From positions 1 to 50,830 of the forward strand of contig JAQSXC010000031.1 in NCBI GenBank assembly GCA_029266335.1: a stretch of 50,830 nucleotides of DNA. The letters are read 5' to 3'. The DNA is from Eubacterium sp. Lineage in GTDB: Bacteria > Bacillota > Clostridia > Acetivibrionales > DSM-1351. How positions within the stretch are numbered: position 1 is the stretch's first letter; the number at the start of each line of letters is the position of its first letter. The translations under genes and the position numbers were made by a program. Of this stretch, positions 3,960-17,836 are shown piece by piece. Below the pieces are notes generated by a model that was given only the letters and a program-made list of their open reading frames with translations, was not told the origin of the DNA and searched no databases.

Positions 3960-4173
3960 TTTTTACTCCCTTTCTATCTCTTCTGATCACTGCAAAATAA
4001 TAAACTATAAGCGGCGTAGGAAAGTTGGATATACCCCAAATCCCCCACAGCCACGGAAACCGTCCTCTTTTCTGTGCATCTCTGAATATCCAGATTCCCT
4101 GGCAAAAAACAAATAATACTATTAGTATTATCATCCATAAAGGCGGGTTATCTAAAAAATCATAAAAGCTCAT
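3952..4173 (-). CDS. Small membrane protein of the sigma-Y type operon (yxlD/yxlE-like position)
   Basis: A 73-residue protein with two hydrophobic segments: ILIVLFVFCQGIWIF, then a basic stretch (RDAQKRGRFPWLWG), then a second segment ending in a basic tail. The layout resembles PLDc_N-type mini membrane proteins. It has a strong GGAGGAG ribosome binding site and overlaps its neighbours on both sides. In the Bacillus sigY operon one or two proteins of this size sit in the same place and act as negative regulators of SigY; the same role is inferred from position only. Confidence 0.7.
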   Translation of the reverse strand: MSFYDFLDNPPLWMIILIVLFVFCQGIWIFRDAQKRGRFPWLWGIWGISNFPTPLIVYYFAVIRRDRKGVKNA

Positions 4174-4465
4174 TTCGTCTCCTCCTCATCAAAAGAAACA
4201 GTACTGTCGGCACTATTAGGAACAGTCCCTGAATTATGACAAATACCAGGGCTGACAGCTGATAAATCACCATCAGTGCTGCTATTATTGCCAGTGCGGT
4301 ACAGCTGAAGATAGCAAGCTGCCTGTTGTTTTTCGCTGCCGTTCTGATCTGTTCATCCGAAACAAAGTTTACAACCGACATTAAATCAGGTGTATTTACG
4401 TCCATGTTATCTATTTTATTTATTATTATCTTTAAATCATCTGCAATTCTTTCATCCTTGCCCAT
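4160..4465 (-). CDS. Membrane-bound putative anti-sigma factor, yxlC-like
   Basis: A 101-residue protein with an N-terminal cytoplasmic half carrying acidic and amphipathic segments (about residues 1-55), then two membrane helices (about 58-92) and a basic RRRRNE tail. The ATG at 4465 is preferred over an upstream in-frame TTG because AAAGGAG lies ten bases before it; the TTG would be only one base from that site. It overlaps the end of the sigma gene by 14 bp. A short cytoplasmic region plus membrane anchor, directly after an ECF sigma gene, is the classic anti-sigma layout and matches YxlC in Bacillus. No zinc-binding H-x3-C-x2-C motif is present. Confidence 0.68.
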   Translation of the reverse strand: MGKDERIADDLKIIINKIDNMDVNTPDLMSVVNFVSDEQIRTAAKNNRQLAIFSCTALAIIAALMVIYQLSALVFVIIQGLFLIVPTVLFLLMRRRRNELL

Positions 4466-4988
4466 AGCGTTCAAGCTCCTTTTCTATACTTTTCACTGCA
4501 TTTGAAATCCTTGATTTTACTGTTCCTACAGGTATCCCCAGGGTCTTTGCTATAGCTTCATAAGAATAGTCAAAGTTGTATTTCAGTACTACCGGAGCCT
4601 TCAGTTTTGGAGAAAGCCTGTTGACAGCCTGTATTAAATCATCATTTTTTAACAGGTCGTCAATTGGATTGTCATAGTCTTCAGGCACAGCAAGTCTACT
4701 GCAATAGCTTTCAAACCGTTTTTTTCTTTTTATTGCTGTCAGCCAGGTGTTTTTTGCAATGGTTATCAGCCACGTGCAGAAAGAAGCTTTATTCTCATCA
4801 TAAAGCTTTATCTTTTCTACAGCCCTGGCCATTGTTTCCTGAGTTATGTCAGCAGCATCCTCTCTGTTCAGGGTGAGCTTCAGGCAGTATTTGTATACAG
4901 GCACATAGCTCTCCTGCAGCAGCTGAGCCAATGCATGCCTGTTACCCTGTCTGGCACTTCTGACAAGATATTCAGCTGTGTTACACAA
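4452..4988 (-). CDS. sigY: ECF-type RNA polymerase sigma factor, SigY-like
   Basis: A 178-residue ECF sigma factor. Region 2 (about residues 25-95) contains DAADITQETMARAVEKI and the promoter-melting segment ASFCTWLITIAKNTW. Region 4 (about 115-170) ends in a clear helix-turn-helix (YEAIAKTLGIPVGTVKSRISNAVKSIEKEL). The only possible start is TTG at 4988: the codon two before it is an in-frame TGA, and a GGGGTG site lies eight bases upstream. It heads a five-gene operon whose other products are two small membrane proteins and an ABC exporter, the arrangement of Bacillus sigY. ECF factors of this kind usually drive their own promoter; a candidate is described separately. Confidence 0.88.
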   Translation of the reverse strand: MCNTAEYLVRSARQGNRHALAQLLQESYVPVYKYCLKLTLNREDAADITQETMARAVEKIKLYDENKASFCTWLITIAKNTWLTAIKRKKRFESYCSRLAVPEDYDNPIDDLLKNDDLIQAVNRLSPKLKAPVVLKYNFDYSYEAIAKTLGIPVGTVKSRISNAVKSIEKELERYGQG

Positions 4989-5176: not shown

Positions 5177-5255
5177 AGCATTACCATGTTACAATTAATT
5201 CCTGAATAGATTATATTTGCAAATTAAAAGGTTTTATAACTAATGGATGGTTTCT

Positions 5256-6074
5256 ATGGATAAACTTATAAATTTGGAAAATTACAAAAATAAGATAATT
5301 TGTTATTTTAAGATGCGAACCACACGAATAAAAGATATTAATATTGAACAATTATACAAAAGGTTTGCCAGGGATACTTACAATGTACCGAATTTTCCAC
5401 CCGGAAATATAGACTTATGGATCAAATATCAGGCCCATATTTTTTTAATGGAAGAATTTAAAAATAAGCCTGACCTTTTTTACAAATTGTTTATAGAACT
5501 TATATACAGTTACAGTGCTTTTTATAAAAGGGCGGAATTTAATCATTACAAAGATTATTATCCTGAGCAGCTTTTTTTTAATGTAGAGATTTCAATGGCA
5601 CCTTTAAGAACGTTAGTGACTGAATCAGGTTATCCAAACAGAATTCTTTGCTATTGCTTCAAGTGCCTGCTTGCCGGATGGACTCCACAAAGAATTGCCA
5701 GGGAACTTCACTGTATGAAGCTGGACAGCATGCTGAATCTATTTACCTTACATTATGCAAAGGAATCCGGTATACACAAGCTCTGTGTCGATTATATGTT
5801 TCTGCCTTTAAGAAAGAGCTTAAATGAAACGCTGAATTATTACATTGAATTATATGGAAATGACGACGAAAAATTTTTAAATATTACCAAAAACATTTTA
5901 TTTACTCGTACAGGCTCAACAAACCTAGATGATTATATGGGTGAAAGTGAACTTCCTCGAAAGGCTCACATGATTTCTGTATGGTGTAACAGGATAAAAA
6001 GTTCATTAATAAAAAAAATAATTCGGTTCCTTAAAAAGCAAGAATATTACTGTGATTCAGAAAGGATGGAGTAA
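5256..6074 (+). CDS. Protein of unknown function, possibly a divergent sigma-like regulator
   Basis: A 272-residue protein I cannot assign to a family. It is rich in Tyr, Phe, Lys and Asn, has no signal peptide or membrane segment, and looks all-helical and cytoplasmic. A segment near residue 150 (GWTPQRIARELHCMKLDSM) has the spacing of a helix-turn-helix like sigma region 4, but the match is weak. An ATG three codons upstream (5247) is in frame; the ATG at 5256 is preferred because GGATGG precedes it by five bases. The next gene starts one base after this stop codon and encodes a zinc-finger anti-sigma-like protein, so a sigma/anti-sigma pair is a reasonable hypothesis but only that. Confidence 0.6.
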   Translation: MDKLINLENYKNKIICYFKMRTTRIKDINIEQLYKRFARDTYNVPNFPPGNIDLWIKYQAHIFLMEEFKNKPDLFYKLFIELIYSYSAFYKRAEFNHYKDYYPEQLFFNVEISMAPLRTLVTESGYPNRILCYCFKCLLAGWTPQRIARELHCMKLDSMLNLFTLHYAKESGIHKLCVDYMFLPLRKSLNETLNYYIELYGNDDEKFLNITKNILFTRTGSTNLDDYMGESELPRKAHMISVWCNRIKSSLIKKIIRFLKKQEYYCDSERME

Positions 6075-6075
6075 A

Positions 6076-6594
6076 ATGAGTGATTCGGCCGGAAATTGCC
6101 CTACACCCGACATGATACTTAAATATTTTTACATGGAACTTGATGAGGAAGAGACAAATATAATTGAAACCCATTTTGCAATATGCAGCAGGTGTCATTC
6201 TGAATATGATTACTATGGAGCTTTTATTGAACAAATTACACCTTCAGCAAAAGTACAGAAGGAGCTGTGGCTTAATTCAAACAGTGATACCTTCTCAGTT
6301 GCTGCTGCAGCAAGTTACGGCACTGCCGGAACCTCGGAGCTAATATCAAATGATGGAAAGTATCATCTGAAAAAGATAGCCTATATGGATGATTCATGTA
6401 CATCCCTGCTTGTGGTAAAATTGATATATCCCGGCATATCAGGCAGAATAAGTGTATATATGCTGGAAGATTATACTTCGATTTTTATTGGCTCGGAATT
6501 AACCGATGAAGATAACAAGGTCTGTTTTGAAGTAAGCTCAGATATTAAACTGACAAATCTATTAGTAACCTTCATCTTATCAGAAATTGAATAA
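6076..6594 (+). CDS. Zinc-finger (ZAS-type) anti-sigma-like protein
   Basis: A 172-residue protein whose N-terminal part carries H33-x3-C37-x2-C40 (THFAICSRCHSEY), the metal-binding signature of zinc-associated anti-sigma domains, inside a helical segment (residues about 12-50) typical of that fold. The remainder is a predicted beta-rich domain with no membrane helix, so unlike most such proteins it appears soluble. The ATG at 6076 is preferred over an upstream GTG (6052) because GGATGGAG precedes it and it follows the previous stop codon by one base, indicating translational coupling. It probably binds the protein encoded just upstream. The C-terminal domain is unrecognised and could be a ligand or protein sensor. 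Confidence 0.68.
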   Translation: MSDSAGNCPTPDMILKYFYMELDEEETNIIETHFAICSRCHSEYDYYGAFIEQITPSAKVQKELWLNSNSDTFSVAAAASYGTAGTSELISNDGKYHLKKIAYMDDSCTSLLVVKLIYPGISGRISVYMLEDYTSIFIGSELTDEDNKVCFEVSSDIKLTNLLVTFILSEIE

Positions 6595-6714: not shown

Positions 6715-7920
6715 CTAATCACTGCTGTATACCTCAAATTCCCGTAAAGAATAGCCATAGCTGCTGGAGCTCTGGTATGCGTACATTTTAACATATCTGG
6801 CACGCACAGTGTCAAAATTGATTACATCAATTCCCCCTTTGCCATGACTCTCGGAGGAAACCACTTCCCAGGAAGAACCGTCGGTTGATACCTGTATCTC
6901 AAATTTTCTGGCATATGATACTTCCCACTTTAATACTACATGTGAAATGTTTTTTACTGATTCCAGATCTATATAAATCCACTGCTGCTCGGAATAATCT
7001 GAGGACCATCCGGTATTCTCCTTCCCATCTAACGCATTTCCGGATGAATTTGCGGAGTTTAGGTCCGAACTTGCAAAAGCAAGCTTATTTTGTGCGAGAT
7101 TAACGGAATGGGATGTGGATGATAGTTCAAATACCATGAGAAATAGTATTACAACAATAATAATTCTTGTAAGGGTCATTACAAATTTAATATAATTTAT
7201 GTTTTTTACAGTAAATTTTTTAGATTTCCGGCTTTCTCCTATATTAGGTATTTCATATGATAACACGTGTTTATTTGCAGAAAAATTGTTCTTGGGATGT
7301 TCAAATAATATGCTATGTTCCTCTTGTATAAAAATATTGGGCAGTATGCCCATATCAAAAAATAATTGTCTTATGCTTGCTACGTGTTTTAACTGTATAC
7401 CACTGTTATTTACCGTAATATAGAACTCCTCATCCCGTGACAGTAATATTTGAAGCTCCTCTTTATTCTGACTGGGATAAAACATTAATTTAATATTCTT
7501 ACATATAGCGCCTAAAATTTTCTCCTTGAGGTTTCTTATTTTTTTTACATTTCCTATAATATCTACTTCACCGGTAGCAGCAATTTCTTCCGGAAGCTCC
7601 AGAGAAGTCCCTATAATTTTTTCTTTTTTTAATATTGAAGCAAATGCGACTGAATATGCAAGACCTGCACTACTCCCGTCAACCTGTTGAGTAAAATCTT
7701 TTACCGTAATAGAAATGGGTGTCTTTTGAATATACGCCTTAATATCTTTAGAGAATAAAATTTCATAAGCACATTCTATTCCTCTTCTTGCAGATTCTTT
7801 TACCTTTGGAGAGCGAAAGCTTTGAAAGTATATCGCTAAAGTTTCATTCATCTCAACATTTAATAATTTTATATTTACTAATTCAGCAGTTCCATTATCA
7901 AATAATGCATATGTATGCAT
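6715..7920 (-). CDS. Membrane-anchored Lon-type (S16) peptidase domain fused to an extracellular discoidin domain
   Basis: A 401-residue protein with an unusual layout. The N-terminal half has no signal peptide and carries a Lon proteolytic domain (about residues 50-190) with the Ser-Lys dyad in place: Ser84 in DGSSAG and Lys132 in NLKEK, within TGEVDIIGNVKKIRNLKEK, the usual Lon motif. A basic stretch (RKSKK) precedes one membrane helix (about 243-266), indicating N-in, C-out. The exterior part (273-399) is an F5/8 type C/discoidin (CBM32-like) domain. No AAA+ ATPase domain is present, so it cannot unfold substrates as Lon does. The ATG at 7920 is chosen over 7932 because GGAGG lies five bases before it. 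Topology resembles RsgI-type carbohydrate-sensing anti-sigma proteins, and a ZAS anti-sigma-like gene lies next door, convergent. Role inferred: sensing of an outside glycan and regulated proteolysis inside. Confidence 0.82.
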   Translation of the reverse strand: MHTYALFDNGTAELVNIKLLNVEMNETLAIYFQSFRSPKVKESARRGIECAYEILFSKDIKAYIQKTPISITVKDFTQQVDGSSAGLAYSVAFASILKKEKIIGTSLELPEEIAATGEVDIIGNVKKIRNLKEKILGAICKNIKLMFYPSQNKEELQILLSRDEEFYITVNNSGIQLKHVASIRQLFFDMGILPNIFIQEEHSILFEHPKNNFSANKHVLSYEIPNIGESRKSKKFTVKNINYIKFVMTLTRIIIVVILFLMVFELSSTSHSVNLAQNKLAFASSDLNSANSSGNALDGKENTGWSSDYSEQQWIYIDLESVKNISHVVLKWEVSYARKFEIQVSTDGSSWEVVSSESHGKGGIDVINFDTVRARYVKMYAYQSSSSYGYSLREFEVYSSD

Positions 7921-8236
7921 TTTTCCCTCCATTCAATAACCGTGAGTACATATTAAATTTGACATATATAATTTGTTGTTTTCATAATTATACAAATTTC
8001 TATTTTTTATGGTACATATATAATATGTACTTAATTTTACATTATTTGGGTTACATATTATATAATAATTTCAAACAATTTTTTTGCAAGAATTATTTGT
8101 TTTTTTGTAAAATGCGCTTAAAGAAAGGATTTGTACCTTTTATACAGATGAAAAGGTACAAATCCTTCTACAATTGGGGTGCTGAAATAATTGAACACTA
8201 ACAATTTCACATATACAAAAATATATTTCAACCTGC
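7921..8236. other. AT-rich intergenic region with one long hairpin
   Basis: This stretch is very AT-rich and holds the upstream region of the Lon/discoidin gene and the end of the biosynthetic operon. Its one clear element is a 17-bp perfect hairpin at 8125-8167. A plus-strand open frame across 7788-8201 overlaps the start of a real gene, has low-complexity composition and no ribosome binding site, and is not called. Confidence 0.6.
8125..8167. terminator. Long perfect hairpin, probable terminator of the biosynthetic operon
   Basis: Arms of 17 bp (8125-8141 and 8151-8167) are perfectly complementary with a nine-base loop. Read on the minus strand it follows the last gene of the operon by about 70 bp and is followed by TCTTTAA, a weak T-tract. 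It may act as a terminator or as a 3' stabilising structure. Confidence 0.6.
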
Positions 8237-9397
8237 CTAAACACTCAATGCTCTGACTCTATGCTTTGTTATGTTTCCCAGGTTTACTATATGATCATCA
8301 AATTCCGGGCTTTTTAAAATTTCCAGGAACCTGGAGTATTCTTCATGGTCGGGATTGCAAACTGCATTTTCATTAAACTCTTGCCTTTCCCATGTTTGCC
8401 AGTCATCCAGGCCGCTGAATGTAATTTGATCAGAATTATATTTTTTAGCAATGGAAATAATATCAACCATCTCTTTATAATTTTTCCTTTGAACTATAAA
8501 GGCAAGAATAAGATTATTCAATGTATTTTCTTTTCTTTTTCTGCCCAGAAATTCTATGTTCTTCAATAGAGTATTCAGATTTCCGTTTACCCTTATTCTT
8601 TCATAGGTTTCAGGTGCTGCTGCATCAATCGATATAAAAATATTGCTTATATTTGAATGAATTTTAATCATTTTTTCCCACACTTCAGGCGTCAGCAGCA
8701 TGCCATTAGTCATAATGAAGAACTTTAACTGCGGGTACCTGGTTCCGTCAAAATTATAAAGAAATTCTCTGTAGATTGAGGAAGCAAACGGATCGCCTGC
8801 ACCTGTTACAAAAAAGCACCTGACATTTTCGTACCCGCTTTTCTCAAGGGTATCAAACAACTTCTTATGTACCGCACGCCGCCTTTCATACTCAGGACCT
8901 TTTGTATGAACAATATTATTTTGACGGCAGCTTGGACACCTGAGGTTACAGGTTTCGTCATAGGCAAGATTGAAGCTTGCAGGTAAAATTTTCAGAAAGG
9001 TTCTGCCATCAAGAATATTTTTTATCCACGGTGCATGGTCTTTTAACTCCAGTAAAGAATCTTCGAGCTCTTCCCCTCTGCTGTCAGCTGCGGCTGCCTG
9101 CTGCAGTTCATTCCTTGTATAAAGCCTGAATTCCTCACTATTGAGATATGGGCACTTTTCCTTGCTGCAATAACTGTATGTACCGTCTAAAACACTTTGC
9201 CGCAGGCTTTGCATCCGGTCAGAATTCCATAATTCCTCCAGAGTCAGTTTCTCTATATCACCAGTACCGAAGAAATCAGGCAGCCAGGATTCGCAACAGC
9301 AGGCTGTTCTATCATCCAAAGTAATGTCTATATGGGTAAATGGTCTTAAGCAATACAAGCCTTTAAAATCTTTTATGTTCTTCATGTATATATTCAT
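8237..9397 (-). CDS. Radical SAM protein with N-terminal SPASM-like cysteines
   Basis: A 386-residue radical SAM enzyme. The CxxxCxxC cluster motif is at C150, C154, C157 (ETCNLRCPSC), followed by an alpha/beta barrel pattern (FFVTGAGDPF, FIMTNGMLL, IFISIDAA). An N-terminal segment (residues 16-85) carries C16, C33-C35, C77 and C82, which looks like a SPASM-type auxiliary Fe-S region placed before the barrel. AAAGGA abuts the ATG at 9397, so the in-frame ATG at 9385 may be the true start. It is the last gene of the minus-strand biosynthetic operon. The substrate is unknown; such proteins often modify peptides or sugars. Confidence 0.82.
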   Translation of the reverse strand: MNIYMKNIKDFKGLYCLRPFTHIDITLDDRTACCCESWLPDFFGTGDIEKLTLEELWNSDRMQSLRQSVLDGTYSYCSKEKCPYLNSEEFRLYTRNELQQAAAADSRGEELEDSLLELKDHAPWIKNILDGRTFLKILPASFNLAYDETCNLRCPSCRQNNIVHTKGPEYERRRAVHKKLFDTLEKSGYENVRCFFVTGAGDPFASSIYREFLYNFDGTRYPQLKFFIMTNGMLLTPEVWEKMIKIHSNISNIFISIDAAAPETYERIRVNGNLNTLLKNIEFLGRKRKENTLNNLILAFIVQRKNYKEMVDIISIAKKYNSDQITFSGLDDWQTWERQEFNENAVCNPDHEEYSRFLEILKSPEFDDHIVNLGNITKHRVRALSV

Positions 9398-9483
9398 TCC
9401 TTTGCTACTATATATTTGGATCTAAAGCATGACATTCTGCCGTGCTTTACCCATCTCCTGCTTAATCTAATTAAAGATAAAGA

Positions 9484-10839
9484 CTAAATATCCATAATTG
9501 ATACCTCTTCAAGTTTGGACCTTAAACTGTTTACTGCACTGACATAATTCTTGTTGGAACGGTAATGATTTTCAAAGGCATCCTGTAAGGCATCAGGCTC
9601 ATTTACATTTGCCTGGTATAGGAATGTAAGCTGAGTTTTCAAATCTTTCAGCTGTTCCATGGAAAAATTCTTTGCCGACTTGATATTCATCATATTTTCA
9701 AAGGGTACGAATAAATCAGGAGTTATTTCCACGTCAGGATAATTCCTTTTAAACTCCCCATCAGTAAGGCTGGGCATGTATATGGAAAAGTCCGAGCAGA
9801 TGCTGCCTAATTTCAGAGCAAGTTTATATGTATTCTGCAGTGTATCCCAGCTGTCATCCGGAAAACCAACAATATAAAAGGCCAATGTCAGAACATTTTT
9901 TTTATTTAAATAGTCGATAAGACTTTTTGTTTTTTCAACTCCGTAAACCGGCCTTTTATAACTCTGGAGTATATCATCCTCAGCTGATTCCACACCAAAG
10001 AATATAAACTTTAAACCTGCTTCCACCATAAGGTCTATTAGCTCTGTATCCAGAGATTCCAGCCTGGTCTCGCAATACCAGTCAAATCTCAGACCCTGAT
10101 CTATTATACTGTGGCACAATTCCAATACCATTTTTCTATTTGCGGTAAAAAACTGATCTCTGAACTGAATTGTCTTAAAACCAAGTGACAGCAAATGTTT
10201 TATGTCGCAAATAACCTTATCCACCGATCTGAATTCAAATTTTTTTCCATAGAAGGAGGCATATGGGCAATAGGAGCAGCCTACTGCACAACCCCTGCTC
10301 ATATAAAGGCACCCCCTCAGCTCTCCTGAAATCAATTTATACTTATCATATGGAAAAAGTGAATAATCCGGTGTAGGAAATTCATCGATCTGATTTGATG
10401 ACAAGTTTCCCAGCATATCATTGACATAATGCTCAACAGGAACCTCAGGAATATCATCGATTTCGGGAGCATGCTTCAGTATCCAATCTTTGAGAAGCTT
10501 TGCTGTGTGCCCCGCCAGAACTATTCTGGATGTGTAATTATTCTTTTTAAGGTATCTCGCAAAATCAATGTCATATTTTATGGTGGGCGAGGCCCCTTTC
10601 AGAATGATAACATCATACTTTCCCGTCATTTTTTTTATAGCATCCTTGGGTAATAGCATCTCGGCATTTGCATCTATAATATCCAATTGAACAGACTTGT
10701 TATTTTTGGCAATAGTAGCGGCAAAAATCAGAGGAAGATCCGGAAAAGCCTGAGGCAGGTGTTCTGCTGTTCCCAGATCCCCCATCATATCACTGGATAT
10801 GGTTATCCCGTAATAGGGTCTTAAAAGTAACAGTTTCAT
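9484..10839 (-). CDS. B12-binding-domain radical SAM protein
   Basis: A 451-residue protein with the two-part layout of cobalamin-dependent radical SAM enzymes. The N-terminal Rossmann-like region (about 1-145) starts MKLLLLRPYYG and includes LDIIDANAE and DVIILKGASPT, as in B12-binding domains. The radical SAM domain follows with C184, C188, C191 (SRGCAVGCSYCPY) and an ELP3-type pattern (FFGVESAEDDILQSYKRP). The canonical DxHxxG cobalamin motif is not evident, so cobalamin may be bound without a lower-ligand histidine, or not at all. Members catalyse methylations or other C-C bond chemistry. It sits among three glycosyltransferases, an aminotransferase and a dehydrogenase, which points to modification of a glycan-like product. 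Confidence 0.83.
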   Translation of the reverse strand: MKLLLLRPYYGITISSDMMGDLGTAEHLPQAFPDLPLIFAATIAKNNKSVQLDIIDANAEMLLPKDAIKKMTGKYDVIILKGASPTIKYDIDFARYLKKNNYTSRIVLAGHTAKLLKDWILKHAPEIDDIPEVPVEHYVNDMLGNLSSNQIDEFPTPDYSLFPYDKYKLISGELRGCLYMSRGCAVGCSYCPYASFYGKKFEFRSVDKVICDIKHLLSLGFKTIQFRDQFFTANRKMVLELCHSIIDQGLRFDWYCETRLESLDTELIDLMVEAGLKFIFFGVESAEDDILQSYKRPVYGVEKTKSLIDYLNKKNVLTLAFYIVGFPDDSWDTLQNTYKLALKLGSICSDFSIYMPSLTDGEFKRNYPDVEITPDLFVPFENMMNIKSAKNFSMEQLKDLKTQLTFLYQANVNEPDALQDAFENHYRSNKNYVSAVNSLRSKLEEVSIMDI

Positions 10840-10943
10840 ACTAAAGGACTCCTTTTCATATGTTTTTGGATGTTTCAGAATATCTTTTTTATATATTTTT
10901 AAATTTATTCTATTTTTGATTTTAATATGAGAATAGTTTTGAT

Positions 10944-12035
10944 CTAGGCATATGTGTATAGAGAAACCTGAGAATTATTAATATGGTTTTGAATCCAGAT
11001 AATCAGATCCAGATTATCTCTGGAACACATGACGGTATACCTGGTGTCGGAATTTGCGGCCACCAGCTTAGAAAGAATATGAATGGAAGGTTCCTTAACC
11101 ATGAGGGTTCTAGAAAATTCTCTTTCAGAGATATCATAGACCATACGAAGTATTTTCTCATAATTTATATGGATTTTTTGTGTTTCCTTACGATAGTCCT
11201 CCTGTGGCATAGACAACATATCATGAAATTTAAGATCGGATTCAGGAAGCATCCTGAGAACACTGACAGGAAAATCATTTTCGTATTTTCCGATGAAATA
11301 CTTAAGATTCCTGTCCCATTCCAATGCCTTATCTCTGGTGAATTGTTCGTCATGATACTGGTGAAAAGCCTCAATATTGGGATTATACATGATCTTTACA
11401 CCATTTCTGTTCTGCCGGTATCCGAATTCACTGTCTTCAAGGCCCCAACCCTTGAAATTTTCATCAAAACCTCCAAAAAGTTCAACTGCTTTTTTAGGAA
11501 TGGATATATTGTTGGTATAAGTGTATAACCAGTTACTTCGCAGTGAGCCAAGGTTTTCAGAAATCAGCTGAAAGAGATGGTGGCGGTCTTCATGGCAGTA
11601 ATCTTCTGCTAAGATAAGCTTGTTTAGCCGGTTTGGCAGATCCTCACAGGTTTTGTCAAATAAAAGATTGCGCAGCCCGATTTGCAATACCATCTGATCC
11701 GGGAAAACTTTCTGATGAAATTTCACATGTTGTGAAACGTAATCAGGCTTCACCAGCATATCACTGTCCAAAAATATCAGGAGTTCACCTTGTGCATGTA
11801 GTATCCCGAGATTCCTGGCATTCCCTCGCCCGGTGTTTTTCATGGTATTGTAATACCTGACGGAAATCCTGAGGTTCATTTCATCAATCATGTTCTGATT
11901 AAAATCATGGGACCCGTCTTCCGCCAGAATTACTTCAAAGCCGTTTGCATCAAAATCCTGCCGGTTTAGTGTCATTAATGTATTGGCAAGATGTTCCCTT
12001 CGATTATAATATGGAATGATAATGCTGCACTTCAT
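10944..12035 (-). CDS. Family 2 glycosyltransferase with galactosyltransferase-type C-terminus
   Basis: A 363-residue GT-A fold enzyme. It starts MKCSIIIPYYNRREHL and has the nucleotide-binding Asp in ILAEDGSHD, the metal-binding DxD in IFLDSDMLV, and a C-terminal acceptor motif GWGLEDSEFGYR typical of the glyco_transf_7C type. There is no membrane segment, so it is cytoplasmic or peripheral. The start ATG follows GGGGAG and lies 32 bp inside the end of the preceding glycosyltransferase gene, so the two are translationally coupled and probably act in sequence on one acceptor. Sugar donor and acceptor cannot be read from sequence. Confidence 0.86.
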   Translation of the reverse strand: MKCSIIIPYYNRREHLANTLMTLNRQDFDANGFEVILAEDGSHDFNQNMIDEMNLRISVRYYNTMKNTGRGNARNLGILHAQGELLIFLDSDMLVKPDYVSQHVKFHQKVFPDQMVLQIGLRNLLFDKTCEDLPNRLNKLILAEDYCHEDRHHLFQLISENLGSLRSNWLYTYTNNISIPKKAVELFGGFDENFKGWGLEDSEFGYRQNRNGVKIMYNPNIEAFHQYHDEQFTRDKALEWDRNLKYFIGKYENDFPVSVLRMLPESDLKFHDMLSMPQEDYRKETQKIHINYEKILRMVYDISEREFSRTLMVKEPSIHILSKLVAANSDTRYTVMCSRDNLDLIIWIQNHINNSQVSLYTYA

Positions 12036-12957
12036 AAGCGTCTCCCCTGTTAAGACATATATTGCTGCTTTCCATTTTCAATAATTTTTCATTCAAGTCC
12101 TCGCAGGCTGTAGTTAACCATAGTTTTGTAGCTGTTGTATGATACTTTGCATCCATTCTGCGCTTTTTTTTCATGAACACATCATCAAAGGACTCATAGA
12201 ATCCGGGGTTTTTGCCATGAGGATAATGGATGCTTTCAACCGATCTGCTCATCACAAACCTGACATTATTCTTTTCCAGTGCCAGAGCCAGATCAGTGTC
12301 TTCTCCTCCCCAGCTGGTATAGGCTTCATCAAACAGATTTGCCTGAATCAAAGCGGCTTTGGGCACCGATACATGGCAGGTCCAGAAGATTACCCAGGGT
12401 GCCGGCCATTTGGAAAGGTCATCTCCATATTTTTGATAAAGAGGCTCTCTGCTGTCGCAGATCCCCAGTTTTTTCAGCTCTGAAATTGACTTGTCGGGAT
12501 TTTTTACATCCACTAGCTCCAATAATTTAGATGAATCCCTGTTATAGTCGTCAAATCCATAAACATAACCTATGACAGCACAGGGACCGGTGCAGCTCCC
12601 ATGTATTTTCAAATGCTCTTCAACAGCATGTTTTCCAAGGATTACAGATGCGTCTGCAAAAATACATAAGGGTGCATCTGCATTCAGAATGCCAGTATTT
12701 CTTGCCTTGGAGACCCTGTAGCCTTTGTCTTCCTGATAGAAATACTTGAAGTTTACTTTGCTGAAATATGGTTTAACCACCTCTTTAGTATCATCTGACG
12801 ACCCATCATCTACGACAATAATCTGTAAAAAACGTGAATCAATTGATTGCTCTAGAATGGAATCGATGGTATATTTCAGCAGGCGGCTCCGATTGTAGGT
12901 TGGAATTATAATACTTGCCAATGGTGGTGCATTTTTCTGTATATTTAAATTCTTCAT
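12004..12957 (-). CDS. Family 2 glycosyltransferase
   Basis: A 317-residue GT-A enzyme: ASIIIPTYNRSRLLKYTIDS at the N-terminus, IIVVDDGSSDDT (nucleotide-binding Asp), CIFADASVIL where the usual DxD reads AD-A, and WGGEDTDLALALEKN near the C-terminus. The altered DxD may affect metal use. ATG at 12957 is chosen because GGAGGT lies four bases before it; a TTG six codons upstream is in frame but poorly placed. Its end overlaps the next glycosyltransferase by 32 bp. Together with its two relatives in the operon it implies at least three sugar transfers. Confidence 0.85.
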   Translation of the reverse strand: MKNLNIQKNAPPLASIIIPTYNRSRLLKYTIDSILEQSIDSRFLQIIVVDDGSSDDTKEVVKPYFSKVNFKYFYQEDKGYRVSKARNTGILNADAPLCIFADASVILGKHAVEEHLKIHGSCTGPCAVIGYVYGFDDYNRDSSKLLELVDVKNPDKSISELKKLGICDSREPLYQKYGDDLSKWPAPWVIFWTCHVSVPKAALIQANLFDEAYTSWGGEDTDLALALEKNNVRFVMSRSVESIHYPHGKNPGFYESFDDVFMKKKRRMDAKYHTTATKLWLTTACEDLNEKLLKMESSNICLNRGDAYEVQHYHSIL

Positions 12958-13001
12958 ATTGACCTCCGTGTACAATAATTTTTACAATAAACCTGAGCTG
13001 T

Positions 13002-13577
13002 TCATTCGTCCTGGTGTAAATTTCTGTCAATGGGTTCAGCAATGGAAAAGTTCCTAAATACAGCTTTAAATCCACTTCTTTCAGGTGAGCAACACATGAT
13101 TCCCGCCATGCAGCTTTTTGTCCTCGGCATGTACCCGAGCCGTAACATCTGCCATTTGCCATCCTTATCCACGAACTGAATCCGAATTGCTTCTTCATGG
13201 CGTGTAAGGCGTATTGTGAGTTCACCATTATAATCCGGATATTTAACCACTGACCAGTCTGAAAATTCATTTGTAAAAACTGAACTCAGGTGGATTTTGC
13301 CGTCTGTAAACTCTATTCCGGTCTTTACCCAATGACTTTCATCCAGGCGAAGCATAAGTCCAAGCTGGTCATAAAGAGTTTCAAAATCACCGGCTATGGT
13401 TACCTGCATAGTAAAATCACCTTTGGTTTCCTTATAGAAAAAGTGACCATTATCACGAACGAAACCATAATAGGTATTTCTCCAAAAATCGCTTTGATTT
13501 GCTGTTTCAACTATTAATCCGCTTTCCGTAATATCCAGGTTTGGCGGTCTGCAATGCCAGTGAAAATTTTCAAACAT
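13002..13577 (-). CDS. DUF1349 family protein (concanavalin-like fold)
   Basis: A 191-residue protein of the full DUF1349 length. The family pattern is present: a Trp-rich start (FENFHWHCRPPNL), SDFWRNTYYGF, the GLMLRLDESHWVKTGIEF core and a C-terminal CCSPERSGFKAVFRNFSI. The family has a jelly-roll, concanavalin-like fold and often accompanies carbohydrate genes, but its biochemical role is not established. There is no signal peptide, so it is cytoplasmic. A good AAGGAG site precedes the ATG. It sits between glycosyltransferase genes, with gaps of 35 and 44 bp, so it is part of the operon; binding of a glycan intermediate is one possibility. Confidence 0.82.
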   Translation of the reverse strand: MFENFHWHCRPPNLDITESGLIVETANQSDFWRNTYYGFVRDNGHFFYKETKGDFTMQVTIAGDFETLYDQLGLMLRLDESHWVKTGIEFTDGKIHLSSVFTNEFSDWSVVKYPDYNGELTIRLTRHEEAIRIQFVDKDGKWQMLRLGYMPRTKSCMAGIMCCSPERSGFKAVFRNFSIAEPIDRNLHQDE

Positions 13578-13612
13578 ATTTATACTCCTTATAGTCGAGC
13601 TATTTTTTTAAC

Positions 13613-14761
13613 TTATCGTACTCCGTATTTATGAACTTTCTTAGATACACGTTGACACTCCTTCAATATAAGGCTTCTGTATTTATCACTGAAACCTTCT
13701 GTTTCGGGGAGAATAAAGCATTCTTCGGCACTCTGATCTTCAAAGGGCAGGGATATACCTGCCAGTGGTATGGAAATTACTGCTTTTTTGGTATCAAACA
13801 CCGGTGTACTGCTGTCATTAACATAGCAGCCGTTTCTGTCCTGAATTACTCCGACAACAAGTGTGGGTACTCCCTTTACATTTCCTTTTAATACGGAGAG
13901 ATAATTGTTTTTATTATTTGCAATTTTCGCTATTTCGCCTTTATACTCAACATAATTGATGTTCCCTTGAAAATCTCCAAATGCACTTACAATTTCCACA
14001 TCGTAACCCGGATATTTGCTCAAAAAGTAACGGTAATTTGTCTTTTCAGTAAGCTGGTTACTATATACATTGCGGGTATGTGGAAGATGTATACCCCATA
14101 CATCTTCTTTCAGCAGCAGGGGAGTACCTGTAAGGCTGATCCGGTAGGCCCACTCGAGATCTTCCACACCATAACCCCTGAAGTGAACGTCAAAGTATAG
14201 CCGGTTTTCTTCAAGGATTGTTCTTGGCAGTGCAATAAGTGCCGTCCAGGCAAATGCCCATGGAATACTATGCGCCACATGCCATCTGATATCTTTTTGA
14301 AAGGGCTGTTCCTTTTCAAGCTCAGAGAGGAGTTTTTCATAGTAGGAAAAAGGCAGAACTTCCACCGACTCTATATTTTCGGTATTATTGCTGTAATCAA
14401 TCATCTGCCCGATAACACATTGTTTCTGATGAAAGGAAAAATGTTTGTCATAAAGGTTGGTCAAAAAGTTTCCGGGAAGCACCATGTCCACATCAAGAAT
14501 TACAAGAACTTCACCCGTTGCCTGCTTTAACGCAACGGACCGTGCAAAGGCTACGTTCCACTCTTCATTAACCATAACTGAACGGATATTGATTTTATCT
14601 GCAAATTCTTTGCAAACGGCTACATATCTCTCACAATATTCCATGACTCCTACAACAACTTCAAATTCTGATTTGTCCATAGTCTGGGCGGCCAGAGCTT
14701 CGAAGGACAGACGTATATTTTCAAGTCTCTTTTTATAAGGCATAATGATACTAATTTTCAT
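13613..14761 (-). CDS. Family 2 glycosyltransferase
   Basis: A 382-residue GT-A enzyme with ISIIMPYKKRLENIRLSF at the N-terminus, LVILDVDMVLP (DxD type metal site) and a C-terminal GYGVEDLEWAYRISL acceptor motif. A distinct C-terminal region of about 100 residues follows, which could bind the acceptor. The frame extends seven codons upstream to a TTG at 14782, but other members begin with the MKISIIMPY-like strand, so ATG 14761 is used; no strong Shine-Dalgarno precedes it (GGAGG is 14 bases away). It lies 110 bp after the HAD phosphatase gene and 35 bp before the DUF1349 gene. Confidence 0.84.
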   Translation of the reverse strand: MKISIIMPYKKRLENIRLSFEALAAQTMDKSEFEVVVGVMEYCERYVAVCKEFADKINIRSVMVNEEWNVAFARSVALKQATGEVLVILDVDMVLPGNFLTNLYDKHFSFHQKQCVIGQMIDYSNNTENIESVEVLPFSYYEKLLSELEKEQPFQKDIRWHVAHSIPWAFAWTALIALPRTILEENRLYFDVHFRGYGVEDLEWAYRISLTGTPLLLKEDVWGIHLPHTRNVYSNQLTEKTNYRYFLSKYPGYDVEIVSAFGDFQGNINYVEYKGEIAKIANNKNNYLSVLKGNVKGVPTLVVGVIQDRNGCYVNDSSTPVFDTKKAVISIPLAGISLPFEDQSAEECFILPETEGFSDKYRSLILKECQRVSKKVHKYGVR

Positions 14762-14870
14762 AATTTCTTTAAAAGCCTCCAAATTCTATTACATTTTGTT
14801 TGTATCTGGATTCAACAGAATGTTAATGTATTTTGTACTTCTACATGTTTATGTTATGTTTTAAACTCTT

Positions 14871-15515
14871 TCAGTTATTTAAAATTTCTCTTATAAAAGG
14901 AATCTCTCCCAAGTTTTTTATTACTTTTATAGCGTCTATGTAGCATTGGGTATTTGACAGTCCATGGGGCCAGGCATAGATATTTTCAATTCCCGCCCCC
15001 CTGGCAGAAGTTATGCCTGTATCCGAATCTTCCAGCACTACTACCTCATCTGCCGTAAGTCCCAGGCATTTCAACATTGTTATATAGGGCAAGGCATGAG
15101 GTTTGGTATGTGCTACACAATCACAGGATACAAGTGGGACTTCCTTTAAAAGTGGAAGGTTTATCAAAGCTATATTTCCCCTGCAGATTTTCATTTCCGC
15201 AGAAGAAACACAACCAAAGGGAATATTTTGTGCAACAAGTTTTTGCCATAATTCCTGGATTCCCGGCCTAAGCATTGACTTATTCAATTGTTTAAGATAA
15301 TAGTCGGCCATTAATTTTTTCAGTTCAAAAATACTTTCCTTATTGACACAAATCCTGTCAAGGGTTTCATCCAGGCTCAGACCTATTAGGCTTTCAGGCT
15401 GAAAATCTATCGGCTTTTCTGCAAGGCTTTTTAGGGTTTCTACAATTGAAGCAGCATGAAGCGGTTCGCTGTCAACTAATATGCCATCAATATCAAATAT
15501 TATCCCCTTAATCAT
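14871..15515 (-). CDS. HAD-superfamily sugar phosphatase or phosphomutase-like protein
   Basis: A 214-residue HAD protein with all four motifs: FDIDGILVD (nucleophile Asp8 and acid/base Asp10), VSSAEMK (motif II Ser), HTKPHALPY (motif III Lys) and VLEDSDTGITSA (motif IV acidic pair). The cap is the helical type of the beta-phosphoglucomutase/phosphoglycolate phosphatase group. Its start codon overlaps the end of the dehydrogenase gene by 8 bp. In this operon it most likely removes phosphate from a sugar or cyclitol phosphate made by the neighbouring dehydrogenase and aminotransferase; a phosphomutase role is also possible. Confidence 0.82.
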   Translation of the reverse strand: MIKGIIFDIDGILVDSEPLHAASIVETLKSLAEKPIDFQPESLIGLSLDETLDRICVNKESIFELKKLMADYYLKQLNKSMLRPGIQELWQKLVAQNIPFGCVSSAEMKICRGNIALINLPLLKEVPLVSCDCVAHTKPHALPYITMLKCLGLTADEVVVLEDSDTGITSARGAGIENIYAWPHGLSNTQCYIDAIKVIKNLGEIPFIREILNN

Positions 15516-16572
15516 GGTAGTCTCCTATTTGAATTAATACCTTACAGTTTGGCTCTGTGGTTCCTGTCATTTGATTCTGGTTCAGATTACAGCCAATTGC
15601 AGCAAACGCCTTTGTGAACTCATTAATCGGATATGTATGACTCACCAGTTTTTCTACAGGGATCACTCCCTTTGTTATGAGGTGAAAGGCTTCAATAAAG
15701 GAGCCGTGCATGGAGTCAATTGACCCCATAATTGTGAGGCTTTTATCAGCCAGCTCCATTGTGTTGATTGACGCTTTTTTATTTTTCAATCCGATGGACA
15801 CATAGGTACTGCCGCAGGCCATTTGGGGATACAGTACTTCAAGCAGCCCTGATGTGGTATCAACAACAAGATCCACAGGTGCATTTGGATCCTTGAAAAA
15901 GTCTGACTTTGCTGCTTCGAGACTTGCATATGCCTTTACACCATTTGGGAGACAGTTTTTTGCATATTCCAGTCTTAAGGGCGAATTTTCAATCAGTACA
16001 GGTACTATGCCTTTCAGAGAAAGAGCCCAAACATAGAGAAGTCCCATTGGGCCTGCCCCAAAAACGTAGGAATATGCAGTCATGGTGGCCGGCTGAATTT
16101 TACGCAATCCTGTCAGAATGCAACTTAAGGGTTCTGTTAATGTCCCGGCCTTCAAGGAAACATTATCGGGCAAAACATGAACAAAATCCTGAGTGGTTTT
16201 ATAGAGGCCGGCAAAAGTCCCATCATAGCTTACCCCACTCTCTGTACCGGACTTGTTCTGACAGTGATTGATTCTAAGGGTCTGGCACATTCTGCATTTT
16301 CCGCAGTAAGGTGTAGGGTTGATTACAACCCGTTCCCCCACTTTTACCTTTTCCACCTTTTCACCGATTTCTGCCACAATTCCAGTGGCTTCATGGCCCA
16401 GAGTAACTCCTTTTACTGCTACGGGATATTCCCCTGATACAATACCAACATCTGTGCCGCAAATTCCGCAATAGGCTACGGCAACAATCACATCGTAAGG
16501 GGTTGTTACATGAAGATTGTTTACTTCTTCAAGTGATAAATCCCACTGATTCCTATACTTCAATGCTTGCAT
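15508..16572 (-). CDS. Zinc-dependent medium-chain dehydrogenase (sorbitol/threonine dehydrogenase type)
   Basis: A 354-residue MDR enzyme. Catalytic zinc ligands are Cys35 (CGICGTD) and His60-Glu61 (GHEATG); the structural zinc site is intact at Cys90, 93, 96 and 104 (CGKCRMC...C). A Rossmann domain with VFGAGPMGLLY follows. The substrate is expected to be a polyol, sugar or amino alcohol. The ATG at 16572 is preferred to one at 16587 because GAGGAGGA sits five bases before it. It overlaps the aminotransferase gene by 20 bp. Oxidation of an alcohol to a ketone or aldehyde followed by transamination is the likely joint reaction of this pair. Confidence 0.88.
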   Translation of the reverse strand: MQALKYRNQWDLSLEEVNNLHVTTPYDVIVAVAYCGICGTDVGIVSGEYPVAVKGVTLGHEATGIVAEIGEKVEKVKVGERVVINPTPYCGKCRMCQTLRINHCQNKSGTESGVSYDGTFAGLYKTTQDFVHVLPDNVSLKAGTLTEPLSCILTGLRKIQPATMTAYSYVFGAGPMGLLYVWALSLKGIVPVLIENSPLRLEYAKNCLPNGVKAYASLEAAKSDFFKDPNAPVDLVVDTTSGLLEVLYPQMACGSTYVSIGLKNKKASINTMELADKSLTIMGSIDSMHGSFIEAFHLITKGVIPVEKLVSHTYPINEFTKAFAAIGCNLNQNQMTGTTEPNCKVLIQIGDYHD

Positions 16573-17836
16573 GCTTCTCCTCCTCATACTGTATTAATGC
16601 TGCTTTCAATTGTTGAAGAACTTTTTCCACCTCTTCTTCAGTAATAATAAGTGGTGGTCTGACTTTTACCGTATTACCGAAACCGTAACGACTGCCACGC
16701 ATAATTAGTCCGTTTTCTTTGGCAATTTTTATAAAATCTGCTGTTGCAGTGCTACCAGGCATGTCAAAAGCAAGCATTAAGCCCTCACCCTTTACATTGC
16801 TCATAAAAGGGAATTCTTTTGCCAGTTCAATAAGACCATTTTTTAAGATTACAGACTGCTTCTTTACATTTTGCAGAACTTTATGTTTCTTTATATATTT
16901 TATGGTTTCTTCAAGAGCAACCAGTGCCAAAGGATTTGCGCCGGAAGTTGTAGAGTGCTCCCAGGAATTCAAGATATCAAGTTCTTTTCGCATCAATACT
17001 CCTGCAACAGGAATTCCTATCCCGCCTGCACCCTTTGCAAAAGTTATTATGTCAGGCTTCAGTGTTTTAGCGATACCTGTACTGGCAAAAAAGGTCCCAG
17101 TCCTGCCAAAACCTGTTTGTACCTCATCTGCAATGATTAAAATATTGTGCCTGTCGCAGATTTTTCTGATGAGTCTGAAATATTCCGGATGTGGAACAAT
17201 GTTTCCGCCATTTCCAAGGATGGGCTCAATAATAAAAGCGGCTACCTGGCCACCGGATGCATATTCAATAAACTCTTCAAGTCTTCTGGCGCATAATATA
17301 TTGCAATTGTCCTTTTTTTGTCCGTAAAAACAGTTTTCACAGTTAGAGCCGGGTATTTTAAGTGCTCCGGAAAAAGTGGCATTAAAATTACTCTGACGAA
17401 ACGCATTTCCGGAGATTCCCGTACTTGTGATGCTTTGACCATGGTGGGACAAAAATACCGAGATGACCTCTCTCTTTCCGGTTGCCTTTTGCGCAATTCT
17501 AATTGCACATTCATTGGCTGTTGATCCGATAATATCCCTAAACCAGAATGCTTCTATGTGTTCAGGAAGATATTCCTTCAAGGCCCGGAAAATGACTCTT
17601 GATTTTTCCTTGGTATAATCTGACGAAAGATGACAGCACAGGTCCAACTGGCGATGCAGTGCCTGTGTTATTTCTCCTGCTGAATAACCTAATGCTAGGT
17701 TAAATGTACCGGATGCACAGTCGATATATTCCTTTTTATCTATGTACAGGTAAATGCCTTTTCCTACATATCTTTTTAATGACATATCGACCACATCAAC
17801 TAATTCTTTTTGCAGATTGGTACTTTCTTTTACCAT
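16553..17836 (-). CDS. Class III PLP-dependent aminotransferase
   Basis: A 427-residue fold-type I aminotransferase of the omega/GabT class. The PLP lysine is Lys268 in ITFAKGAGG, the cofactor Asp is in IIADEVQTGFGRTG (Asp237), and the phosphate-binding segment is FRDIIGSTANECAIRIA. A Cys-containing insertion at 166-182 (C-x2-C...C...C) is as found in several GabT/dialkylglycine-type enzymes. Its ATG has GGAGGG ten bases upstream and it is the first gene of the nine-gene operon. Class III aminotransferases paired with zinc dehydrogenases install amino groups on sugars, cyclitols or polyols; 4-aminobutyrate or ornithine-type catabolism is the alternative but does not fit the glycosyltransferase neighbours. 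Confidence 0.88.
   Translation of the reverse strand: MVKESTNLQKELVDVVDMSLKRYVGKGIYLYIDKKEYIDCASGTFNLALGYSAGEITQALHRQLDLCCHLSSDYTKEKSRVIFRALKEYLPEHIEAFWFRDIIGSTANECAIRIAQKATGKREVISVFLSHHGQSITSTGISGNAFRQSNFNATFSGALKIPGSNCENCFYGQKKDNCNILCARRLEEFIEYASGGQVAAFIIEPILGNGGNIVPHPEYFRLIRKICDRHNILIIADEVQTGFGRTGTFFASTGIAKTLKPDIITFAKGAGGIGIPVAGVLMRKELDILNSWEHSTTSGANPLALVALEETIKYIKKHKVLQNVKKQSVILKNGLIELAKEFPFMSNVKGEGLMLAFDMPGSTATADFIKIAKENGLIMRGSRYGFGNTVKVRPPLIITEEEVEKVLQQLKAALIQYEEEKHASIEV

Follow-up and report, generated by a model that had tools for sequence, protein, structure and literature searches.

Lon-type proteases have been tied to sigma control in the CalpL/CalpT/CalpS system, in which, according to excerpts of two reports, the Lon domain, fitted with a C-terminal sensor, forms oligomers and cleaves an anti-sigma factor, which releases a sigma factor (PMC11417357, PMC12751052); a subsequent ClpXP step for the cut CalpT is assumed in the excerpts of the former (PMC11417357). 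In cellulolytic clostridia, excerpts on RsgI provide a precedent for control through an outer domain (PMC6056542, PMC3413522). RsgI fragments ending in VAA, IAA, SAA or SVA are degraded by ClpXP, whereas an RsgI2 fragment ending in FAA is not, as given in excerpts of PMC12203970.

Here we describe a locus on a 50,830-nucleotide stretch of Eubacterium sp. DNA (contig JAQSXC010000031.1, positions 1–50,830), the whole of which is referred to as the window. It encodes a Lon-type (S16) peptidase domain joined through a membrane helix to an F5/8C domain, beside genes for a zinc-finger protein and a sigma-like protein. With moderate confidence, we read these as a three-gene transmembrane signalling cassette, in which a receptor protease would release a divergent sigma factor by clipping its soluble anti-sigma factor. 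The cassette may be carried by some cellulose-degrading clostridia and their relatives as a means of converting outside signals into gene expression. Searches of one open-licence library found no description of such a Lon-type receptor protease cassette protein; the term 'lon protease' is absent from the main text of PMC3413522 and PMC6507058, and Cthe_1773 is listed as 'peptidase S16, lon-like protein' in an excerpt of PMC3478167.

Architecture and presumed catalytic residues of the S16 protein

The S16 receptor-protease gene lies on the reverse strand at positions 6715–7920, with a first ATG at 7932 also possible: the open reading frame counted from that ATG (6715–7932) encodes 405 aa, and the ATG at 7920 gives 401 aa. 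The shorter form, which the sequence-only reading had chosen, is preferred because GGAGGG stands just upstream of this second ATG. Residues are numbered here on the 405-aa form, and were numbered on the 401-aa form in the sequence-only reading. Pfam recognised Lon_C at residues 45–161 (E = 9.5e-11) and F5_F8_type_C at residues 287–398 (E = 3.3e-24), with no match to an AAA+ module in the 401–405-aa protein. Based on Lon_C and AlphaFold/Foldseek, the S16 peptidase domain was assigned to residues 5–199 (7336–7920), followed by a single membrane helix predicted from hydropathy at residues 250–268 (7129–7185) and the outer F5/8C (discoidin) domain at residues 287–398 (6739–7074), all on the reverse strand. 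The one hydrophobic segment is preceded by six lysines and arginines in 15 residues and followed by one in 15. The best PDB sequence matches of the F5/8C domain were chains of 136–138 residues named Glucanase or Glucanase/chitosanase (4zz5 and others; phmmer, 1.8e-25).

An AlphaFold model built on a six-row alignment had a mean pLDDT of 74–94 in 19 of the 20 ten-residue blocks covering residues 1–200, and of 60 in block 61–70. Over the whole protein, mean pLDDT was 56.8 and pTM 0.51, with low confidence in the helix and F5/8C parts, such that assignment of the F5/8C domain relies on Pfam and phmmer. When the model was compared with the PDB using Foldseek, all 50 among the matches listed were Lon proteases (best E 2.5e-11, probability 1.00).

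Alignment to E. coli Lon (1rr9) placed Ser88 (codon 7669–7671, reverse strand), the presumed nucleophile, at the nucleophile position and Lys138 (codon 7519–7521, reverse strand), the presumed general base, at the catalytic lysine. The corresponding residues of E. coli Lon are S679 and K722. All 13 proteins (12 alignment rows, plus that of locus L065) keep Ser88 and Lys138 unchanged, as well as the pair Thr120-Gly121, while mean column identity is 27% across the full-length alignment (12 rows). The motif around the serine deviates from DGxSAG in L041–L047. The sequence-only reading had described an intact Ser-Lys dyad in a domain lacking an AAA+ module, one helix with its positive side inward and an outward F5/8C domain, and all of this agrees with the Pfam matches, the hydropathy and charge distribution, the Foldseek matches for residues 1–200 and the conservation of both residues in register with 1rr9. 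Its serine, Ser84, is our Ser88. Its lysine has to be reassigned: Lys132, the leading K in LKEK, is variable in the relatives, and the catalytic position lies two residues on, at Lys134 (our Lys138). The protein thus carries an S16 peptidase domain with a conserved Ser-Lys dyad and has no AAA+ match.

Relatives and their outer domains

We searched residues 1–266 against 60 related genomes, which gave 12 matches with E no higher than 7.3e-11, one of them the window protein itself; weaker rows (E 3.1e-8 and above) were classed as Lon-type by frame length, two of these frames containing stops. Scanning the genome contigs with the single protein returned no relative, and scanning them with a profile of six S16 domains returned five loci: four were already known and could be placed in Ruminiclostridium sufflavum, Pseudobacteroides cellulosolvens and two MAGs, and one, L065, was new. 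In total, 13 distinct S16 proteins of this architecture were found in the genomes searched. Lon_C was matched at E ≤ 0.01 in ten of the 13, the others being L044, L046 and L047. A single hydrophobic segment follows the S16 region in every protein, and three show a second peak within that region. Lysine and arginine residues are more numerous before the helix than after it in 11 of 13, equal in L046 and reversed in L042. In many of the proteins a Pro/Thr/Ser-rich stretch follows the helix.

The outer parts vary. Pfam recognised five kinds of outer domain in six of the 13 proteins and none in the other seven: F5/8C in the window protein and L037, DUF5050 in L043, Big_5 in L044, a beta/gamma-crystallin domain just at the cut-off in L045 and a rhamnogalacturonase/pectate-lyase-like beta-helix in L065 (7.9e-17). 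L038–L040 have a cohesin-like stretch at residues about 210–304, above the cut-off in one of the three; because it precedes the helix at 368–390, this domain would lie on the presumed cytoplasmic side, which is odd for the fold. Glycan binding, proposed in the sequence-only reading as the outside signal, is not supported as a rule for the family, since the outer domains differ and only the F5/8C and pectate-lyase-like beta-helix domains suggest carbohydrate. A glycan is therefore weakly supported as the general ligand, and glycan sensing is possible for the F5/8C and beta-helix members.

Linkage and co-variation of the three genes

Comparing neighbouring genes all against all, we found two partner families next to the S16 gene at 11 of 12 loci, and both are also present at L065. 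The trio was thus found in all 12 loci where the contig allows a check, so that the neighbourhood check proposed in the sequence-only reading was passed; L040, the thirteenth, was excluded because its 5.5-kb contig ends before the position that the partners occupy in its close relative L039. One partner is the zinc-finger protein, the anti-sigma-like neighbour that the sequence-only reading had named as the nearest candidate substrate, which is conserved beside the S16 gene at every checkable locus and falls into matching groups. The other, a sigma-like gene at 5247–6074 in the window, was not part of that reading and is a third constant member. Gene order is sigma-like, zinc-finger, S16 on one strand in nine of the 12 trio loci, the S16 gene is convergent to its partners in the window and L037, and a gene for an S-layer-anchored (SLH-domain) protein stands between members of the trio in L039.

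The sigma-like profile had 12 matches in seven of 58 genomes of the order, and all seven encode an S16 protein. Eleven of these matches are within trio loci, and genome G053, which holds the L040 contig, has an S16 protein and no sigma-like match. An even draw of 391 genomes from the class, in which up to six candidates per genome were scored, yielded the sigma-like family only in three genomes already known. The twelfth match is a truncated sigma-like gene overlapping an RCC1-repeat fragment (L060:9386-10127, contig C111 of G043), and L060 is likely a relic of a cassette.

Pairwise distances of the three families were correlated (r 0.90–0.92; for each pairing, 0 of 5000 permutations gave a correlation as high), a correlation to which shared species history also contributes. 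The sequences form three groups, taken from identities rather than from a tree, and in every family all 12 sequences have their nearest neighbour within their own group. On a single contig, Pseudobacteroides cellulosolvens encodes three cassettes, one from each group (L041, L042 and L044), and G043 and G054 have two cassettes each, in different groups. Since paralogues of one genome fall in different groups, the cassettes appear to travel as units. Linkage strongly supports the zinc-finger neighbour as a putative partner of the S16 protein.

The zinc-finger protein

The zinc-finger anti-sigma-like gene is on the forward strand at 6076–6594, within an open reading frame that begins at 6052, the ATG at 6076 being the likely start as read from the sequence. 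A C...HX3CX2C motif is present in all 12 zinc-finger proteins of the cassette loci. Pfam zf-HC2 is below the cut-off in the window protein (E 0.0093), weak zf-HC2 matches at E ≤ 1 occur in seven of 11 zinc-finger proteins, and the L065 protein had no zf-HC2 match at E ≤ 0.1. Among solved structures, RsiW was a weak match (0.034), ranking below an unrelated zinc-finger protein (0.011). None of the 11 proteins scanned for a membrane segment exceeds a hydropathy of 1.6 (highest 1.55), so the zinc-finger proteins are predicted to be soluble and an outside signal would therefore need a membrane partner.

Four putative zinc ligands, Tyr25, Ala86 and Gly131 are invariant across the 12 sequences. Ala86, numbered from 6052 (codon 6307–6309, forward strand), lies in the linker and is preceded by alanine in eight of 12, valine in two and cysteine in two, giving XAA-like contexts. 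By analogy with RsgI, we infer that Ala86 may mark the cut site, in what would be a cleavage and degron region.

The sigma-like protein and a parallel module

The sigma-like partner (5247–6074, forward strand) belongs to a family of 245–299 aa with no credible family match. It may combine a degenerate sigma-2-like N-terminus with a C-terminal domain that is also found in a Sigma70_r2 protein. A search against the PDB gave no match, Pfam gave no sigma match in the family (scattered matches in one member each, best E 0.014), and a fold search with a low-confidence model returned nothing below E 0.2. The sigma-like profile had no significant match to ECF or SigI sets, with SigI-ECF comparisons as positive control at 3.7e-6 and 2e-4; the first comparison used 18 ECF and 15 SigI rows, several of them trimmed or wrongly chosen, and the second retained 14 of the 18 ECF rows after a check of their lengths, with the SigI rows as before. 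A helix-turn-helix seen by eye was discarded, as its score of 9.3 barely differed from the mean over 200 shuffles (9.2). The N-termini did align with sigma region 2 in the expected register (18.8 versus a best of 18.4 in 300 column shuffles, a narrow margin; E 0.013).

Within 398 genomes of the phylum, a 332-aa protein at locus L128 (genome G598) matched the sigma-like profile at 1.9e-10, sharing the C-terminal half, and carries Pfam Sigma70_r2 (3.3e-8); its N-terminus had no significant match to that of the sigma-like family (E 0.12). The neighbouring gene encodes a C...HX3CX2C motif and matched the zinc-finger profile among the 18 open reading frames of the locus (1.7e-6, 18 bits); against the whole G598 genome, the profile gave no match at E ≤ 0.001, and the protein had no Pfam match. 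The gene that follows encodes a 1260-aa TPR-CHAT protein (CHAT 9.5e-68). Together, these three genes (L128:4502-10106) look like a counterpart of the cassette built around a different type of protease. When the C-terminal domain alone served as query, no second case of the L128 type was found, the matches being to one of 20 genomes of the class of G598 and to known or marginal proteins in the 391 and 398 other genomes. Marginal matches were in G404 (8.3e-4) and G501 (2.9e-4). The whole sigma-like profile also matched a 432-aa protein in G759 (7.9e-4); this was treated as chance, the protein being of M16-peptidase type by eye and its locus giving neither a zinc-finger nor an S16 match. The C-terminal half held in common with the Sigma70_r2 protein of L128 and the region-2 register link the family to sigma factors, and on these sequence comparisons a sigma identity is likely.

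Three of the 12 sigma-like genes (L042, L043 and L044) have no ATG, GTG or TTG at the conserved N-terminus. Instead, a ribosome-binding-like sequence is followed by ATA or ATC at about the point where L065 and L045 have ATG, which suggests initiation at a non-AUG codon, an infC-like start. In L046 and L047, in-frame TTG or GTG codons are present only within or just before the ribosome-binding-like stretch, and ATA or ATT starts are possible.

Genomic surroundings

A gene for an SLH-domain protein, a feature absent from the sequence-only reading, is adjacent to the cassette in eight of 13 loci (L038–L044 and L047). None was found among the neighbours scanned in the window (14), L037 (6) or L045 (5); L046 contains the trio alone, and the neighbours of L065 were outside the SLH scan. 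SLH repeats are common, with at least 150 matches in G036 (150 of 201 candidates scored, counted as repeats rather than proteins), so adjacency at one locus means little and recurrence across loci means more. The outer part of the S16 protein is clearly homologous to a large neighbour in one of eight loci tested, L044, where it matches the SLH neighbour at 31% over 179 aa (5e-22); in L039, a weak match to a large neighbour falls in a Pro/Thr-rich stretch. RCC1-SLH proteins adjoin the intact S16 genes of L039 and L040. At L045, a gene for a 1906-aa protein with CBM_3 domains is divergent from the trio.

A gene cluster containing two radical-SAM genes and glycosyltransferases borders the cassette both in the window and in R. 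sufflavum. The window cluster (8237–17836) comprises two radical-SAM and three family-2 glycosyltransferase genes along with DUF1349, HAD, alcohol dehydrogenase and aminotransferase genes, of which the radical-SAM, glycosyltransferase and DUF1349 members recur in R. sufflavum. A separate ECF sigma gene in the window (4160–4988; Sigma70_r2 2.5e-16) overlaps a DUF5345 gene and adjoins ABC-transporter-like genes. A search for a promoter motif shared across cassettes gave nothing convincing.

Discussion

The signalling cassette that we favour builds on observed domains, conservation, linkage and matched groups, and adds inhibition, cleavage, release, a ligand and sigma activity as proposed elements. 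The zinc-finger protein would hold the sigma factor inactive until the S16 domains are brought together or reoriented, either by binding or loss of a ligand or because the outer domain becomes crowded in the wall or S-layer. The activated S16 domain would then cut within the zinc-finger linker, close to the invariant alanine and its XAA-like sequence, leaving an N-terminal zinc-finger fragment that would end in a ClpXP-type degron and be destroyed. The freed sigma factor would switch on surface genes, potentially those for the adjacent SLH proteins where present and the radical-SAM/glycosyltransferase cluster in Ruminiclostridium. Several results weigh against this model: the weak outcome of the direct sigma tests, the narrow margin of the region-2 alignment, the missing zinc-finger match across the whole G598 genome, the lack of a convincing promoter motif, the position of the cohesin-like domain in L038–L040, the charge distribution in L042 and L046, and clear homology between outer part and large neighbour at just one of eight loci. 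The sequence-only reading holds up for the dyad, for its inside-helix-outside arrangement and for the linkage with the anti-sigma-like neighbour (12 of 12 loci); glycan binding as a general signal is not supported, and Lys132 is replaced. A more general form of the proposal, to which we give close to an even chance, is a single-pass receptor with a protease effector: an outer ligand would switch a Lon domain lacking AAA+, which in turn would cut a soluble anti-sigma factor, outer domains would be swapped between cassettes as in receptor kinases, and S16 and CHAT would be interchangeable on one sigma/anti-sigma core.

Three other explanations were weighed against the cassette. The direct sigma tests of the sigma-like family were negative, which favours a reading in which the S16 domain instead cuts the sigma-like protein, or in which the pair is not sigma and anti-sigma at all, being for example another helical DNA- or protein-binding regulator with its inhibitor. 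We regard this as unlikely, given the C-terminal domain in common with a Sigma70_r2 protein that is itself encoded beside a zinc-finger-like gene, and the region-2 register of the N-termini. Cutting itself can also be questioned, since the S16 protein has no unfoldase module and the motif around the serine departs from DGxSAG in L041–L047; the domain could be a regulated binding module, through which an outer ligand alters the grip on the zinc-finger/sigma pair. However, Ser88, Lys138 and the TG pair at 120–121 are invariant in 13 of 13 proteins despite low overall identity, and a non-cutting role seems quite improbable.

The same conserved dyad argues against the membrane protein being an RsgI-type anti-sigma or co-anti-sigma factor that senses glycans outside and is processed by other proteases, with S16 in place of the RsgI N-terminal domain. 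Such a protein would account for the inside-helix-outside plan, as in excerpts on RsgI, and for the Pro/Thr/Ser-rich stretch after the helix in many members. It leaves unexplained a separate soluble zinc-finger protein in all 12 checkable loci, and of the seven matches to SigI models in the genome, none is on the window contig; we consider it very improbable.

If the favoured cassette is correct, it would provide one-step transmembrane sigma control without the usual site-1/site-2 protease cascade, a modular receptor with swappable outer domains and, for cellulolytic clostridia, a further family of sensors in addition to RsgI. It would also mean that Calp logic, in which a sensor-driven Lon protease cuts an anti-sigma factor, has moved from CRISPR immunity to surface sensing.

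Among known systems, the S16 protein shares its fold and Ser-Lys dyad with Lon protease (MEROPS S16) but differs in having no AAA+ and in being joined to a membrane helix and outer domain. In SepM-type membrane proteases, the S16 domain is also membrane-linked; unlike these, the cassette protein scores 16.6 against a cut-off of 200 with the NCBIfam SepM model, has no PDZ match and has its S16 domain predicted to be cytoplasmic. TPR-CHAT/Craspase-type modules are paralleled by L128, where the gene for a Sigma70_r2 protein bearing the cassette C-terminal domain is grouped with zinc-finger-like and TPR-CHAT genes, CHAT standing in place of S16; this is one example in the genomes searched, and the likeness to Craspase is by description, taken from excerpts, alone.

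The closest likenesses are to the two systems with which we began. As far as excerpts on SigI/RsgI describe them, both they and the cassette have an inside-helix-outside sensor, variable outer domains and sigma control, in the same group of organisms; in those excerpts, RsgI is itself the anti-sigma factor and is cut by other proteases, whereas the cassette membrane protein itself carries a protease domain and the zinc finger belongs to a separate, soluble protein. Pfam scans of the S16 proteins gave no RsgI model for an N-terminal anti-sigma domain, Lon_C being found there, and the sigma-like profile had no SigI match, in keeping with the lack of a SigI-model match on the window contig. In CalpL/CalpT/CalpS, associated with type III CRISPR in Sulfurihydrogenibium, excerpts likewise describe an N-terminal Lon domain, a C-terminal sensor and anti-sigma and sigma partners, and a Lon domain is encoded with zinc-finger and sigma-like genes in 12 of 12 checkable loci here, the sigma identity being indirectly supported and the partners likened to CalpT and CalpS by role rather than by sequence. 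CalpL, in the same excerpts, senses cA4 in a SAVED domain, for which neither the window S16 protein, with F5/8C instead, nor the other members had a Pfam match; the cassette proteins combine a membrane helix with outer parts drawn from several unrelated folds. By analogy with both, the cassette would join the CalpL/T/S plan and the RsgI plan in one system.
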